Positions 1 through 6,569 of a DNA stretch of 33,026 nucleotides are shown here, piece after piece. Source of the stretch: Anaerolineae bacterium (GTDB taxonomy: Bacteria; Chloroflexota; Anaerolineae; Anaerolineales; RBG-16-64-43); assembly GCA_003141675.1 (NCBI GenBank), contig PLND01000076.1, forward strand, positions 2,645-35,670, in the 5' to 3' direction. A program made the translations under genes and the position numbers. The first letter of the stretch is position 1. Each line of letters starts with the position of its first letter. Below the pieces are notes generated by a model. The model was not told the DNA's origin. It did no database searches and saw only the letters and a program-made list of their open reading frames with translations.

Positions 1-516
1 GCCGCCATCCGCCAAACCAACACGGCCATGATCTTCACCAACCAGTTGCGCCAGAAAATCGGCGTGATGTTCGGCAATCCCGAGACCACCAGCGGGGGAA
101 TGGCGCTCAAGTTCTACGCCTCGGTGCGGCTCGACGTCCGCCGGGTGCAATCCATCAAGGTGGGAGCCGAAGTGGTGGGCAGCCGCACCCGCGTGCGGGT
201 GGTCAAGAACAAGGTCGCCCCGCCCTTCCGCGAGGCCGAATTCGATATCATGTACAATGAAGGCATCTCCAAGACGGGCGATCTGATAGACATCGGCACC
301 CAGCTTGGATTGATCACCAAGCGCGGCGCGTTTTTCTCGTTCCAGGATACGCGCATCGGACAGGGACGGGAAAACGCCAAGCAGTATTTGAAAGAGCATC
401 CGGAGATCACCGAAGCGCTCGACGCAACCATCCGCGAAAAGACTTTGACGGGCGCGGTGGCGGTGGATCTCTCCTCTTCCGCCGAGGAAGGGGAGGAAAC
501 GGATGCGGAAGCCTAG
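1..516 (+). CDS. recA: RecA recombinase, C-terminal part (5' end outside window)
   Basis: RecA is the ATP-dependent strand-exchange protein of homologous recombination and the co-protease of the SOS response. The reading frame is open from base 1, so the gene begins upstream. About 171 residues are visible. They start in the conserved stretch around [21 protein letters not shown], which holds the glutamine that senses ATP and DNA-binding loop L2, followed by [14 protein letters not shown] and the C-terminal domain ([19 protein letters not shown]). The protein ends in an acidic tail ([10 protein letters not shown]), usual for RecA and thought to modulate DNA binding. The Walker A and B motifs lie outside the window. 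A GC palindrome, TTGCCGGGCCGGCAA, follows the stop at about 523-537 but has no downstream T-run. recX follows, separated by a structured gap. Confidence 0.97.
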
Positions 517-536
517 GCGGTTTTTGCCGGGCCGGC

Positions 537-851
537 AACAGAACAATTTTGCGTGGAGGCTAGACCGGAGAGGATCTGCGTTCCGGCCACTCTCCACGGG
601 CTACGGACTGTCGACAAAGTTTTTTGGAACCTTCCCGCGGAGGTGCGGGTGATGCCATCCAGGCATATGCCGCCGGACTTCGCAATACGTTGTCACCGGT
701 CGTTCTTCCCAAACATCTCAAACCGGCTTTGGGCGGGCGACGCACCTCCCTGCTTCGTTCCGAACGGTTAGGCTTTCACCAACCGGGGGTTTCCACTCCG
801 CTTTGTTCCGTTCTTCGGCAGCCGCAGCCCATCCTGGGTACGGCTGTTTTT
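537..851 (+). ncRNA. Candidate structured RNA or leader between recA and recX
   Basis: This gap has no convincing ORF but shows nested long-range pairing. AACAGAACAA (537-546) pairs with TTGTTCCGTT (803-812) with one mismatch. GTGGAG (553-558) pairs with CTCCGC (796-801) with one G-U. Both belong to one closing helix. Inside it, GGAGGTGCG (639-647) pairs perfectly with CGCACCTCC (741-749), and a smaller hairpin (GGAGAG 567-572 with CTCTCC 590-595) sits in the 5' arm. An intrinsic terminator closes the region at 819-851. A long closed rod with a terminal stem resembles 6S RNA in outline, but I cannot match 6S consensus bases, and the conserved signatures of tmRNA, RNase P RNA and SRP RNA are absent. 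It could be a stand-alone RNA or a cis-acting recX leader. No clear promoter is visible upstream. Confidence 0.45.
819..851 (+). terminator. Intrinsic terminator just upstream of recX
   Basis: CAGCCG (819-824) pairs with CGGCTG (841-846), an inner CCC/GGG pairing closes a small loop, and TTTTT follows at 847-851. The T-run ends five bases before the recX Shine-Dalgarno sequence (857-862), so transcription of recX from recA must read through it. In E. coli recX is likewise expressed by readthrough of a terminator after recA; the same logic is inferred here. Confidence 0.6.
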
Positions 852-1552: not shown

Positions 1553-3091
1553 ATGGGTGATATCTCTTTGGTCCTTACGATCGTGTTTGTTGCCGCGGGC
1601 ATTGTGCTTGGGGTAATTCTAGGATTCGCCGTCCGCCACATGATGGCGGCCCAGCGGATGACCGCGGAGAAAACCACAATCGAGCAGATGAAAGCCGCCG
1701 CGGAAGCTCACGCGCGCCAGATCGAAGTGCAGGCCAAGGACTCCGCGCTGAAGGTGCGCGACGGCGCGGAAGAGGAAAATCGCCGGCGCAGGGCGGACCT
1801 GGCCAACGAAGAGGAGCGTCTGAACCGCCGGCGTACGGAAGTGGACCGGCGCATGGAGCGCCAGGAACAGCGCGAACAGATGCTTAACAAACGCCAGAGC
1901 GCGCTGGACCGGCGCACCGGTGAACTGGAAAAAGTGCACGCCGAACGGCAGGCGGAACTGCAGAAAGTTGCCGGTATGACCGTGGAGGAAGCGCGCGGCG
2001 TCCTGCTGGCGGATGTGGAAAAAGAATCGCGCGCGGACATGGCCCGCACGATCCGCCAGATCGAGGACGAGGCGCGCCAGGAAGGCGAACGCCGCGCCCG
2101 CGAGCTGGTGGCCGACGCCATCCAGCGCGTGGCCTCGGATCACGTCGCGGAGGTGGCGGTGTCGGTTGTCCCGCTGCCCAGCGAGGAGATGAAAGGCCGG
2201 ATCATCGGCCGCAACGGCCGGAACATCCGCGCGTTCGAGCAGGCGGCCGGTGTGGACGTGATTGTCGACGACACACCCGAGGCGGTGACGATCTCCTCCT
2301 TCGATCCGGTCCGTCGCGAGGTGGCCCGCCGCTCGCTGGCCAAGCTCATTCTCGACGGACGCATCCATCCGGCGCACATCGAAAAGGTGCTCGAAGATTC
2401 CCGGAAGGAAGTGGATAAGGTTATTCTGGAGGAAGGCGAACGGGCCTCCTTTGAAACCGGTGTCCCGGGGCTGCATCCGGAAATTCTCAAGAAGCTCGGC
2501 ACGCTCAAGTTCCGCACTTCCTATGGTCAGGAACAGCTATCCCACGCGATCGAAACCGCGCTGCTGGCGGGCGTGATCGCGGCGGAGCTTGGCGCCGACG
2601 TGGCGGCGGCCAAGGCCGGCGGATTGCTCCACGATCTGGGCAAGGCGATGGACCACGATGTGGAAGGCACGCACGCGGCGATCGGCGCGGACTTCGTCAA
2701 GCGTCACGGGGTGCCGGAGAAGATCGTCAACATCATCGCCGCGCATCACCACGAATCGGAGCAGGAAAGCGTCGAGGCGGTGATCGTCGAGGCGGCCGAC
2801 GCGATTTCCGGTGCGCGGCCCGGCGCCCGGCGCGAGAACCTCGAGCAGTACGTCAAGCGCATCCGCACTCTGGAAGAGATCGCCCTTTCCTTTGAGGGAG
2901 TGGAAGAGGCGTACGCGCTGCAGGCCGGCCGCGAAGTTCGCATCATCGTCCGGCCGGAGAATTTAGACGACCTGGCGTCGGTGCGCCTGGCGCGCGACGT
3001 CGCCCGCAAAGTCGAGGAAGGATTGCAATATCCGGGGCAGATTAAAGTGACCGTCATCCGGGAAACCCGGGCGGTGGATTACGCGAAATAA
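1553..3091 (+). CDS. rny: Ribonuclease Y
   Basis: RNase Y is a membrane-anchored endoribonuclease that initiates mRNA decay in many bacteria lacking RNase E. The 512 residues match the usual family length and layout. One N-terminal transmembrane helix (about 4-26) is followed by a long charged coiled coil (about 30-190) rich in E, R and Q. A KH RNA-binding domain (about 202-262) has the GRIIGRNGRNIR loop. An HD phosphohydrolase domain (about 328-421) contains the catalytic metal-binding pair H360-D361 in GGLLHDLGKAMDHD and a second histidine cluster AAHHHESE. The ATG has a strong Shine-Dalgarno (GAGGAGG, about 1540-1546). It lies 24 bases after recX and is probably co-transcribed with it. Confidence 0.97.
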   Translation: MGDISLVLTIVFVAAGIVLGVILGFAVRHMMAAQRMTAEKTTIEQMKAAAEAHARQIEVQAKDSALKVRDGAEEENRRRRADLANEEERLNRRRTEVDRRMERQEQREQMLNKRQSALDRRTGELEKVHAERQAELQKVAGMTVEEARGVLLADVEKESRADMARTIRQIEDEARQEGERRARELVADAIQRVASDHVAEVAVSVVPLPSEEMKGRIIGRNGRNIRAFEQAAGVDVIVDDTPEAVTISSFDPVRREVARRSLAKLILDGRIHPAHIEKVLEDSRKEVDKVILEEGERASFETGVPGLHPEILKKLGTLKFRTSYGQEQLSHAIETALLAGVIAAELGADVAAAKAGGLLHDLGKAMDHDVEGTHAAIGADFVKRHGVPEKIVNIIAAHHHESEQESVEAVIVEAADAISGARPGARRENLEQYVKRIRTLEEIALSFEGVEEAYALQAGREVRIIVRPENLDDLASVRLARDVARKVEEGLQYPGQIKVTVIRETRAVDYAK

Positions 3092-3129: not shown

Positions 3130-3199
3130 GTAGCCGCGATCGGCGATCGCGGCTACAGTTTTACCAAATACGTTTGCAAGGATCGCCGACCGCGGCTAC
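3130..3199. repeat. REP-like palindrome, copy A (full plus half unit)
   Basis: Bases 3130-3156 form a near-perfect palindrome with arms GTAGCCGCGATCG and CGATCGCGGCTAC. A half unit (GATCGCCGACCGCGGCTAC, 3181-3199) follows after 24 bases and runs directly into the end of the minus-strand response-regulator gene. Related copies occur at 7668-7697 and 15380-15406. It lies between the convergent rny and response-regulator genes, so it could act as a bidirectional hairpin terminator, but there is no clear T-run. Confidence 0.75.
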
Positions 3200-3588
3200 T
3201 AATTTTTTGGCGGTTCCACTTTTTTCTCGTTCGCTTCCAACACCTTGCGCATCGCTTGCAGTAGCGTGCTCAGCCGGACCGGTTTCATCAGGAATCCGTC
3301 GCCGAGGATTCGGCTGGTCACCTGATCCTCAGGCGAACCGCGCGCGGAGAAAAACAGAATCGGCGGAGGATCCGGCATCGTGGTCTTTAACCTCTGGGCG
3401 ACAGTAAAGCCATCCATATCCGGAAGCATGATATCCAGCAGGATGGCGTCCGGGCGCTTCTTGGCGATTTGTACGAGCGCTTCTGCCCCCCGCTCAACCG
3501 GCAGCACCTGGTAGCCGGCGCGGCTCAGAATGAGCGTCACCAGCTTCAGGGTGTCGGCGTCATCTTCCACAACCAGCACATCCGCCAT
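3199..3588 (-). CDS. Single-domain response regulator (receiver only)
   Basis: The 129-residue product is a stand-alone CheY-like receiver. Visible signature residues are the acidic pocket (VLVVEDDAD near the N-terminus), the phospho-accepting aspartate in AILLDIMLPDMDG, the conserved Ser in LFFSARGS, and the conserved Lys-Pro in GFLMKPVR. No output domain follows, so it would act by protein-protein contact or within a phosphorelay. The start at 3588 (MADVLVVEDD) is preferred to a much longer upstream extension because GAGAGGAAG lies just upstream and homology begins there; the extension is antisense to the neighbouring lamin-tail gene. No histidine kinase is encoded nearby, so its partner is unknown. 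The stop codon abuts a REP-like repeat. Confidence 0.93.
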   Translation of the reverse strand: MADVLVVEDDADTLKLVTLILSRAGYQVLPVERGAEALVQIAKKRPDAILLDIMLPDMDGFTVAQRLKTTMPDPPPILFFSARGSPEDQVTSRILGDGFLMKPVRLSTLLQAMRKVLEANEKKVEPPKN

Positions 3589-3746
3589 ACGACAACTTCC
3601 TCTCTCATGAAGTTTCATCGGCCCCGACGGCCCCGGGGAAACCCGACGAGTCGTCTCTATTTTATTCATATCCCGGCAAACGCGCCAGCGCGGTTTGTCC
3701 TTATCTCCCCGCAGAATGTCATGAATCTCCGTGCGACGCCCTTTTT

Positions 3747-6569
3747 CTATTGTAAATACCAGGCTTCCCACCACCATCCCAGCCCGCTGCCGGAGGATCC
3801 GACTTCGGGAATCTTCATGGGATCCGCCGACCTTCCGAAGATACGGGGAGCCGTCCAGGCGAAGCACTCTCCGTTCCGCCATGTAAACCATCCGTAGGAT
3901 TCTGCCATCCGGGTCGATTCTTCCCCGCCCGTGGTGAGAAATCCGCCGCCGACGGCAACCGGCCCGTCGCTGGAGGCGCAATCCACATCGCGCCACCCCT
4001 CCGCGATCACAACATGCGGCGCGGGTTTCGGATTCAGCAAGTCGGGTGGCAGGCGGTTCGTTTCGCCCGGTGTCGGCGGGAAACCGAGACGCAGTTTGCC
4101 CTCCCCGTCCGGGAAGCGGTCCCAGCCGCTGTCGGGCCAGCGCGTGCGGGTGTATAGCATGCCGTCCACCGCGCGGCCGTCCGGCGCGAGGAGCCACATC
4201 CCGTCGCCTTCGTCATTAAGCGCAAGATGCGTCTGGCTACGAAAGAATACGAGGTATTCCTTCGGATGAATCACCGTTCCGGGATGGATCACGTACGGGT
4301 GGCTGCCCCCATTCAATCGGTCGTCGAGCATCCATCCTCCCAAATCGATCGATATGGAATTGGTGTTGAGCAGTTCGATGAACTCGTCGTAATAATCCGC
4401 GCTCCCATCGTGGTTCCAATCGCTGCCGGGCTTGGGAACAAACTCGTTGATCAGGACTCCCTTTGGGATTCGGGTAGCCGTCGGGGTGGGGAACAGCGCG
4501 CTGTTGGCCCGTCCCGGCGTTCCGCGGATCGGGTCGCCGCGCGCATCGCGGCCACACAGGACCCAACCGGTATTGGTCATCCAGGTTGGCGGATCGATGG
4601 ATGCTCGCTCCATGCTGGCGTACGCCGGAGATGCGGCGCCCGCCGGCCACGCTGCTCCCCCCGCGCTGTCGATGATATTTCCTGCCGGATCCAGAAGGCG
4701 AAGCTCTTCCCCCGAATTGGAGAGCGCTCCCGTGTACAGTTGATTGGCGGGCACATCGCTCACCGTGTCATCTCCTCCGCGCTCGAGCAGATAATATTCG
4801 CCCGGCCCAATCGATCCTTCCAAATGAATTGCTATGTCATTTCCGTCGGTCAGCGCCCACCCGTCCAGAGGAATCGAATCCGAACCCGGATTCCACAGTT
4901 CGATCCACTCGTCGTCGGTATTGGCCGCCGTGCCGGCCCAGGCCGCTTCATTGATCACCACCGAATACGCTGGAAATGAAACCGAAGCGGCGGTTACGGT
5001 GGGGGTCGGGGATGGAGTGCATGTCGGCATCGCTCCCCCGCAGAAACCCGAGAAGGCGGATCGCGGCGTACCGTTGATCGGATTCCCATAAGCGTCCGCG
5101 CCGTTGCGATGCAGCCCGTCATTCGAGCACCACGAAGAATCGCTTTCTGCGCCGTCTGAAATGTGCTCCATACTGAGTGGTACGGGCGCTGAGGATCCTG
5201 CCGGCCAGGGTCCGCCGTTGTTGTTGGCGGTGTCGATCAAATTACCGGATGGATCGGAGAGCCGGAGAATTTCTCCGCCGTTGGAGAGGCTGCCGGTGTA
5301 AATCTGATCCGCCGCGATATCGCTGATCGTGCCGTCGCGGGTGCGCTCAAGCAGGAAGTATCCTCCCGGCTCGATGGTTCCACTCAGCGCAATGTGGATG
5401 TCGCCACCGTCGGTCAGTGTCCAACCGGAAAGATCGACCGGTGTGGAACCGGGGTTCCACAGCTCAATCCATTCGTCGGAGGAAGAAGCGGCCGTGCCCG
5501 CCCAGGCCACCTCGCTGATGATCACACTTTGGGGATCGTAGGGTGCGGTGGTTGGGGTTATTGTCGGCGTGCCCGTCTCCGTGGCGGTTCCGGTGCCGGT
5601 GAGGGTCGGCGTGGATGTGGAAGTGCGATCCGGAGTCCGGCTGGGAGTCGGCGCGGCGCAAAAACCGGAGAAGGATTGCCGGGGAGTTCCGTGGATCGGA
5701 TTACCGCCTGCGTCCAATCCGCTTCGGTGCACGCCGTCGTTGGTGCACCACGAAGAATCCGAAGCGGGGCCGTCGCCCGTGCGTTCCATCGCCGCAAACG
5801 ATGCCGCCTGCCCCGCCGGCCATGGTCCGCCGTCGCCGTTTGCGGAATCCGCAACCTTCCCGGCCGGATCGTATAGGAAGAGCGCCTCGCCGGAATTCGA
5901 CAGCGCCCCGGTGTAAATCTGGTCGGCCGTGATATTGTTGACCGTCGTGTCGTCGGTGCGTTCCAAAAGGTAGAACCCTCCGACGCCGATCGTTCCGCCG
6001 AGGTTGACGTGGATATCTCCTCCGTCGGTGAGCACCCAGCCCGCCAGATCTACGTCCGATGCTCCCGGATTCCATAGTTCGATCCACTCATCGGAAGAAG
6101 AAGCAGCCGTGCCCGCCCAAGCCACCTCGCTGATTACCACCCATGCCGAAGCGGCCGTCGCCGTCGAAGTACTCGTTGGCGTTGATGTCGGCGTTATCGT
6201 GGGCGATTCGGATAAGGTAGAGGTGGCTGTCGACGTTTCAGTCAGGGTAGTCGTTGGCGTTGGGGTTTCGGTTGGCGATTCGGAAGTGGTGGATGTAATT
6301 GTCGGCAGGAGCGTCTCAGTGAGAGTTTCGGTCAAGGTCACCTCGACCGAAGCGGTAGGCGTTTCGGTTGATGTTTGGGTCTCCCACACCGTATCGGCCG
6401 GAGTTAATGTTTCCGTTTCAAGTACCGTGGGCAAGAAAAAATCCGAAACGGTCGGCGTCGCCGATTCCGTTTCGGATTCCTGTGGCACAGTTCGTCTCGA
6501 AGAAGAAAAAGCGCTCAGCAGCAAACAGAATACAAGCGCAAACAGAAAATATCCTCCCCCTCGCTTCAT
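3747..6569 (-). CDS. Secreted multi-lamin-tail-domain protein
   Basis: This 940-residue exported protein opens with a signal-like hydrophobic segment (FLFALVFCLLLSAFSS, about 8-23). A Thr/Ser/Pro-rich linker with TPTxT and TETxT runs follows (about 35-142). Four lamin-tail-domain-like units come next: about 143-303, 347-510, 535-690 and 702-840. Units 1-3 are close copies with the pattern VVIxEVAWAGTAA, DEWIELWNPG, GWxLTDGxDI and DQIYTGxLSN; unit 4 diverges (INEFVPKPGSDW). Short Pro/Thr linkers separate them. The last ~95 residues (from HVVIAEGWRDVDC) form an unrecognised Cys- and Trp-rich tail. Lamin-tail domains in bacteria are usually on secreted proteins, often with nucleases or proteases, but no enzyme domain is visible here. 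An adhesive or structural surface role is inferred. The start has AAAGGGGG a few bases upstream. Confidence 0.88.
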   Translation of the reverse strand: MKRGGGYFLFALVFCLLLSAFSSSRRTVPQESETESATPTVSDFFLPTVLETETLTPADTVWETQTSTETPTASVEVTLTETLTETLLPTITSTTSESPTETPTPTTTLTETSTATSTLSESPTITPTSTPTSTSTATAASAWVVISEVAWAGTAASSSDEWIELWNPGASDVDLAGWVLTDGGDIHVNLGGTIGVGGFYLLERTDDTTVNNITADQIYTGALSNSGEALFLYDPAGKVADSANGDGGPWPAGQAASFAAMERTGDGPASDSSWCTNDGVHRSGLDAGGNPIHGTPRQSFSGFCAAPTPSRTPDRTSTSTPTLTGTGTATETGTPTITPTTAPYDPQSVIISEVAWAGTAASSSDEWIELWNPGSTPVDLSGWTLTDGGDIHIALSGTIEPGGYFLLERTRDGTISDIAADQIYTGSLSNGGEILRLSDPSGNLIDTANNNGGPWPAGSSAPVPLSMEHISDGAESDSSWCSNDGLHRNGADAYGNPINGTPRSAFSGFCGGAMPTCTPSPTPTVTAASVSFPAYSVVINEAAWAGTAANTDDEWIELWNPGSDSIPLDGWALTDGNDIAIHLEGSIGPGEYYLLERGGDDTVSDVPANQLYTGALSNSGEELRLLDPAGNIIDSAGGAAWPAGAASPAYASMERASIDPPTWMTNTGWVLCGRDARGDPIRGTPGRANSALFPTPTATRIPKGVLINEFVPKPGSDWNHDGSADYYDEFIELLNTNSISIDLGGWMLDDRLNGGSHPYVIHPGTVIHPKEYLVFFRSQTHLALNDEGDGMWLLAPDGRAVDGMLYTRTRWPDSGWDRFPDGEGKLRLGFPPTPGETNRLPPDLLNPKPAPHVVIAEGWRDVDCASSDGPVAVGGGFLTTGGEESTRMAESYGWFTWRNGECFAWTAPRIFGRSADPMKIPEVGSSGSGLGWWWEAWYLQ

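Follow-up and report, generated by a model that had tools for sequence, protein, structure and literature searches.

The window analysed here, a stretch of 33,026 nt from the 2.8 Mb genome of an Anaerolineales MAG, carries in order the 3' part of recA (1-516), a gap reaching from 517 to 862 or 865, recX and rny (Table 1). The gap is present as a single copy in the source genome, as determined by DNA search. It had been described as non-coding in a preliminary description of the sequence, which our comparison supported, since indels of 1, 2 and 4 nt among the window, G001 and G002 disfavour a conserved reading frame, and that candidate was ruled out. In two genomes of the same family, the gap lies at the same place, its first 130 nt are approximately 75% identical, and the terminator is present as well. 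Across the order, syntenic recA-recX gaps measured 284-616 nt, with one exception of 178 nt. No TATAAT occurs in the recA-recX gap of the window, and transcription presumably reaches this region out of recA. Elsewhere in the window, the minus strand (3747-6569) encodes a protein of 940 residues in which Thr/Ser-Pro-rich linkers separate four lamin-tail domains (PF00932), adjoined by a response regulator (3199-4197, minus strand) in an overlapping frame.

Table 1. Genes and predicted RNA features of the recA-recX region, in coordinates of the window.
Feature	Position	Strand	Remarks
recA, 3' part	1-516	+	TIGR02012 match; directly 5' of leader
Candidate anti-antiterminator strand CCGGGCC	527-533	+	Can pair with element at ~600-606
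P1 hairpin	552-598 (552-558 with 592-598)	+	GC-to-AU compensations; three-genome consensus
Antiterminator element GGGCTACGGACTG	598-610	+	Invariant in three genomes; covariation across leaders
Middle domain	626-793	+	Variable sequence; P2 (626-632 with 787-793) as closing helix
Local hairpin CCCGCggagguGCGGG	634-649	+	Invariant in three genomes
Intrinsic terminator	819-851	+	819-824/841-846 and 827-831/835-839; U-tract 847-851; conserved in relatives
recX, controlled gene	863-1528 (start GTG 863 or ATG 866)	+	RecX Pfam and NCBIfam matches
rny	1553-3091		3' of recX

Folded alone, the gap was not significantly stable on either strand (sense z = -1.46, with 7 of 100 shuffles as good; antisense z = -1.31), and support for its predicted structure comes from comparison, the fold of the single sequence being unremarkable. 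The three-genome consensus keeps P1, P2, the local hairpin and the terminator, P2 largely without variation. Thus the 5' hairpin and the terminator proposed earlier were recovered, the former retained with compensatory changes. A proposed 9-bp helix (639-647/741-749) is present in the window but absent in relatives, in which the 741-749 side has diverged and the invariant stretch 634-649 forms the local hairpin instead. A proposed closing helix was not confirmed: its core (541-546/804-809) may have a counterpart in G001, none was seen in G002, and the helix would cross the long-range helices that are conserved. The strand CCGGGCC pairs in the full-length consensus and is invariant in the three genomes, hence it carries no covariation signal either way.

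The preliminary description had missed the element at 598-610, a rival of the terminator for its 5' arm, into which the 3' strand of P1 leads straight. This element nearly copies the 3' arm of the terminator (GGGTACGGCTG, 836-846) and can therefore pair with the 5' arm at 822-830, positions 598-606 forming 8 of 9 pairs with a pairing probability of ~0.9. When the window RNA from 527 to 850 was folded, the antiterminator was predicted at ~0.9 and the terminator at ~0.09. Throughout the class, the upstream element lies 180-380 nt from the terminator and copies its 3' arm. RNAalifold was run on nine separate close groups, and the result rests on eight of them: with the RNA ending at the 5' arm, the antiterminator was predicted in every group read but D, seven of the eight (A, B, C, F, G, H, and I), and with the full-length RNA, the terminator was predicted in A, B, G, H, and I and the antiterminator persisted in C and F. 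Comparison showed that the two predicted helices share the 5' arm of the terminator and exclude each other.

Covariation was tested by matching to each terminator arm its own upstream region and the regions from leaders with different arms. Among 76 leaders of the order, the own region fitted the arm better (mean rank 0.71, median 0.84, p = 4e-7, a value in which kinship by descent remains since the test treats leaders as they come), and the reversed, complemented and reverse-complemented controls gave p = 0.11, 0.99, and 0.40, respectively. Approximately 40% of the order leaders ranked below 0.75. The same test on 34 class leaders gave p = 0.006, with controls at 0.96, 0.33, and 0.36. Matched variants included GGCCAC/GTGGCC in L073, GGCAAT/GTTGTC in L053 (with one G-U pair), GGTTAC/GTAACC in L086, GGGCTACGG/CCGTAGCCC in L012, and CACGGTTGTT/AACAACCGTG in L117. 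In a set of 40 leaders preselected for a good element, for which the 76-leader rank test remains the fair test, approximately 87% of cells were paired in both helices and 8 of 10 pairs in each had changed on both sides, vs. 26-47% paired in slid controls. An element picked blind outscored stretches elsewhere in the same leader (p = 1.6e-5) and showed no own-versus-other preference (p = 0.14), the latter because a later hairpin was often picked.

Loci of recX were gathered from the named genomes as well as from whole genomes of the family, order, class and phylum; a scan with the RecX protein of the window as the sole query returned no match. Of 88 order leaders, 65 had a hairpin-plus-U score of 26 or more, compared with 4 of 88 dinucleotide shuffles; among class leaders the figures were 30 of 40 and 3 of 40. 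A distribution reaching into the phylum's other classes was not supported (12 of 40 leaders, 7 of 40 shuffles). In family f62 (L197 and L201), which belongs to another class of the same phylum, GGGGCTGAGGCA..TGTCTCGGCTTTG and a T-rich tail precede recX and resemble the Anaerolineae motif; this hairpin is possibly a deeper relative of the Anaerolineae leader. The motif AGC[C/U]GUGGC in the terminator 5' arm was found in 60 of 75 strong recX terminators and in only 7 of 121 other terminators of the same loci. It occurred in none of the 17 best hairpins behind recA at loci where recX was not found adjoining. A terminator belonging to the 3' UTR of recA only was thus ruled out, as the motif is absent behind recA lacking recX and recX keeps the leader. 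A pattern search in 14 genomes placed the well-paired form next to recX in G000, G001, G002, G014, G027, G061, and G086, these seven being the genomes with both a match and a recX position at hand, and most other matches were without a continued stem.

The U-tract is poor or interrupted in some relatives (TGTGCGTTTAA). In L014 and L015 (G004 and G003; same family, another genus), the recX-proximal hairpin is kept, with GCAGCCGTGCC/GGCACGGCTGC in L014; in the latter leader the U-tract is missing and recX starts within ~15 nt, and termination there may work differently. Two loci on contigs titled Candidatus Methanoperedens (L061, JAPZAO010000008.1) and Proteobacteria (L094) contain a recX like that of Anaerolineales, the former also with the leader and TATAAT; these contigs are probably mis-binned.

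Most recX genes located elsewhere than behind recA nevertheless have a leader bearing the same terminator. TATAAT was present 180-400 nt before the hairpin in 50 of the 60 order leaders that have no recA upstream, where about 5 would be expected, vs. 1 of 28 order leaders behind recA. Comparison of these loci showed that the leader travels with recX and, when the two genes are apart, has its own putative promoter. A long recX leader, one of the two identities first proposed for the gap, is supported by this behaviour and by the recX-specific terminator motif. Many order leaders with their own promoter (for example L113, L126, L106, and L110) have a small hairpin, UCC-GNAA-GGA, with a GNRA-like loop just after TATAAT. 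A leader peptide was set aside after a few 5' ends had been read by eye, for example those of L113 and L126, in which the ATG is in or beside a small hairpin that relatives without the ATG keep.

Taken together, an intrinsic terminator directly upstream, a covarying alternative helix and linkage to the same gene across species were found, and on this comparative evidence we consider it likely that the recX leader is a cis-acting transcription attenuator distributed across the class. The alternative that survives best, although we regard it as unlikely, is an ordinary terminator between recA and recX, whose fixed partial read-through would lower recX expression with no switch. The terminator is plainly present, and fixed read-through would be a simple means of keeping RecX below RecA; such a terminator, however, leaves unexplained the conserved, covarying upstream copy of its own arm, the recX-specific sequence of that arm and the leaders of ~300 nt with their own promoter. 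Quite improbable, in our estimate, is a stand-alone gene for a trans-acting small RNA with its terminator before recX by chance. Distinct ends would be plausible for such an RNA, with TATAAT at one end and the terminator at the other, and a terminated leader RNA is expected under either model; yet the RNA always adjoins recX where it was seen, in single copy, 27 of 28 recA-recX loci have no promoter in the gap, and the middle is not conserved.

The preliminary description had also suggested that the gap encodes a stand-alone, 6S-like RNA, and had matched it to no known family. The latter statement held in Rfam searches: at gathering score, cmscan detected no family in any part of the window, the gap gave weak chance matches only at E 10, and 20 relatives had no match at gathering score, one further relative giving a chance match only at E 10. 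T-box and all other Rfam families were rejected for want of a covariance-model match, and a search for tRNA and tmRNA found none. The 6S RNA of the source genome was located elsewhere (G000:C78:5700-5875, 71.4 bits vs. a cut-off of 46.4), and 6S RNA (RF00013), to whose long closing stem the leader bears a likeness in outline only, was rejected as the identity of the gap on size, position and sequence. Hence the possibility that the gap holds 6S RNA, or a different known family diverged beyond recognition by Rfam models, as size and the closing-stem outline had suggested, is hardly credible.

Under the attenuator reading, RNA polymerase would enter the leader from recA, or from the leader's own promoter where recX lies elsewhere, and would synthesize in turn P1, the antiterminator element, the folded middle domain of ~170 nt and the 5' arm of the terminator. 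If this arm pairs back with the element, the middle domain would be closed and transcription would continue into recX; if it pairs with the next strand (835-846), the terminator would form and transcription would stop just before recX. Three suppositions enter the model: transcription would stop at the hairpin in vivo, P1 and, in the family of the window, CCGGGCC may sequester the element when the terminator forms, and some signal would set the balance between the two folds.

A word-level search of the middle region detected no word conserved throughout the class, an observation that weighs against a small-molecule aptamer of the classical kind. Given the variability of the middle domain, likelier signals than such an aptamer would seem to be a protein, the ribosome as it completes recA, or the speed of transcription. 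The first base of CCGGGCC lies 11 nt beyond the stop codon of recA, where the edge of a ribosome terminating there would be. In L158, the final codons of a recA-like upstream frame overlap with the element that matches best (GGCCACAGT), ~220 nt before the start of the recX alignment, so one may speculate that in this locus the switch could depend on translation of recA; element-recA distances in other families do not require coupling to recA translation. More tentatively, and with some doubt on our part, the middle domain might sense a cue related to DNA damage and set the supply of RecX by antitermination, a form of RNA-level feedback unknown in other bacteria. Were this so, the candidate cues would include the RecA and RecX proteins, a ribosome reaching the end of recA, and nucleotide supply, and the leader would represent a new and old class of regulated recX leader.

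RecX, which regulates RecA, a protein of DNA repair, restrains RecA filaments, and its supply relative to RecA therefore matters; the known accounts of recX control invoke LexA, promoters and transcription reading through from recA. A literature search, with subscription papers mostly outside its range, found no riboswitch, attenuator or antiterminator for recX, and the leader appears to be an undescribed family of transcription attenuator. A switchable recX terminator kept across dozens of families in one class of Chloroflexota suggests that recombination is controlled at the RNA level in a large, little-studied group, of which cultured relatives carry the leader. The proposal is concrete and testable, as the strands and compensatory mutations are defined.

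Attenuators in which a terminator competes with an antiterminator are familiar from riboswitch, T-box, PyrR and trp-type leaders. With these systems the recX leader shares two exclusive helices that use the 5' arm of the terminator, directly upstream of one gene; it differs in the spacing of 180-380 nt between element and terminator and in a middle without a class-wide conserved core at the word level. With regard to recX itself, the gene is co-transcribed with recA in E. coli and M. smegmatis, and in M. tuberculosis a recX promoter lies inside recA (PMC3062782). Common to those systems and the Anaerolineae locus is that the level of recX is set by transcription out of recA or from its own promoter. 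The published accounts of co-transcription (PMC3062782) give promoters and read-through and no competing antiterminator, whereas the putative attenuator of Anaerolineae has one and moves with recX.
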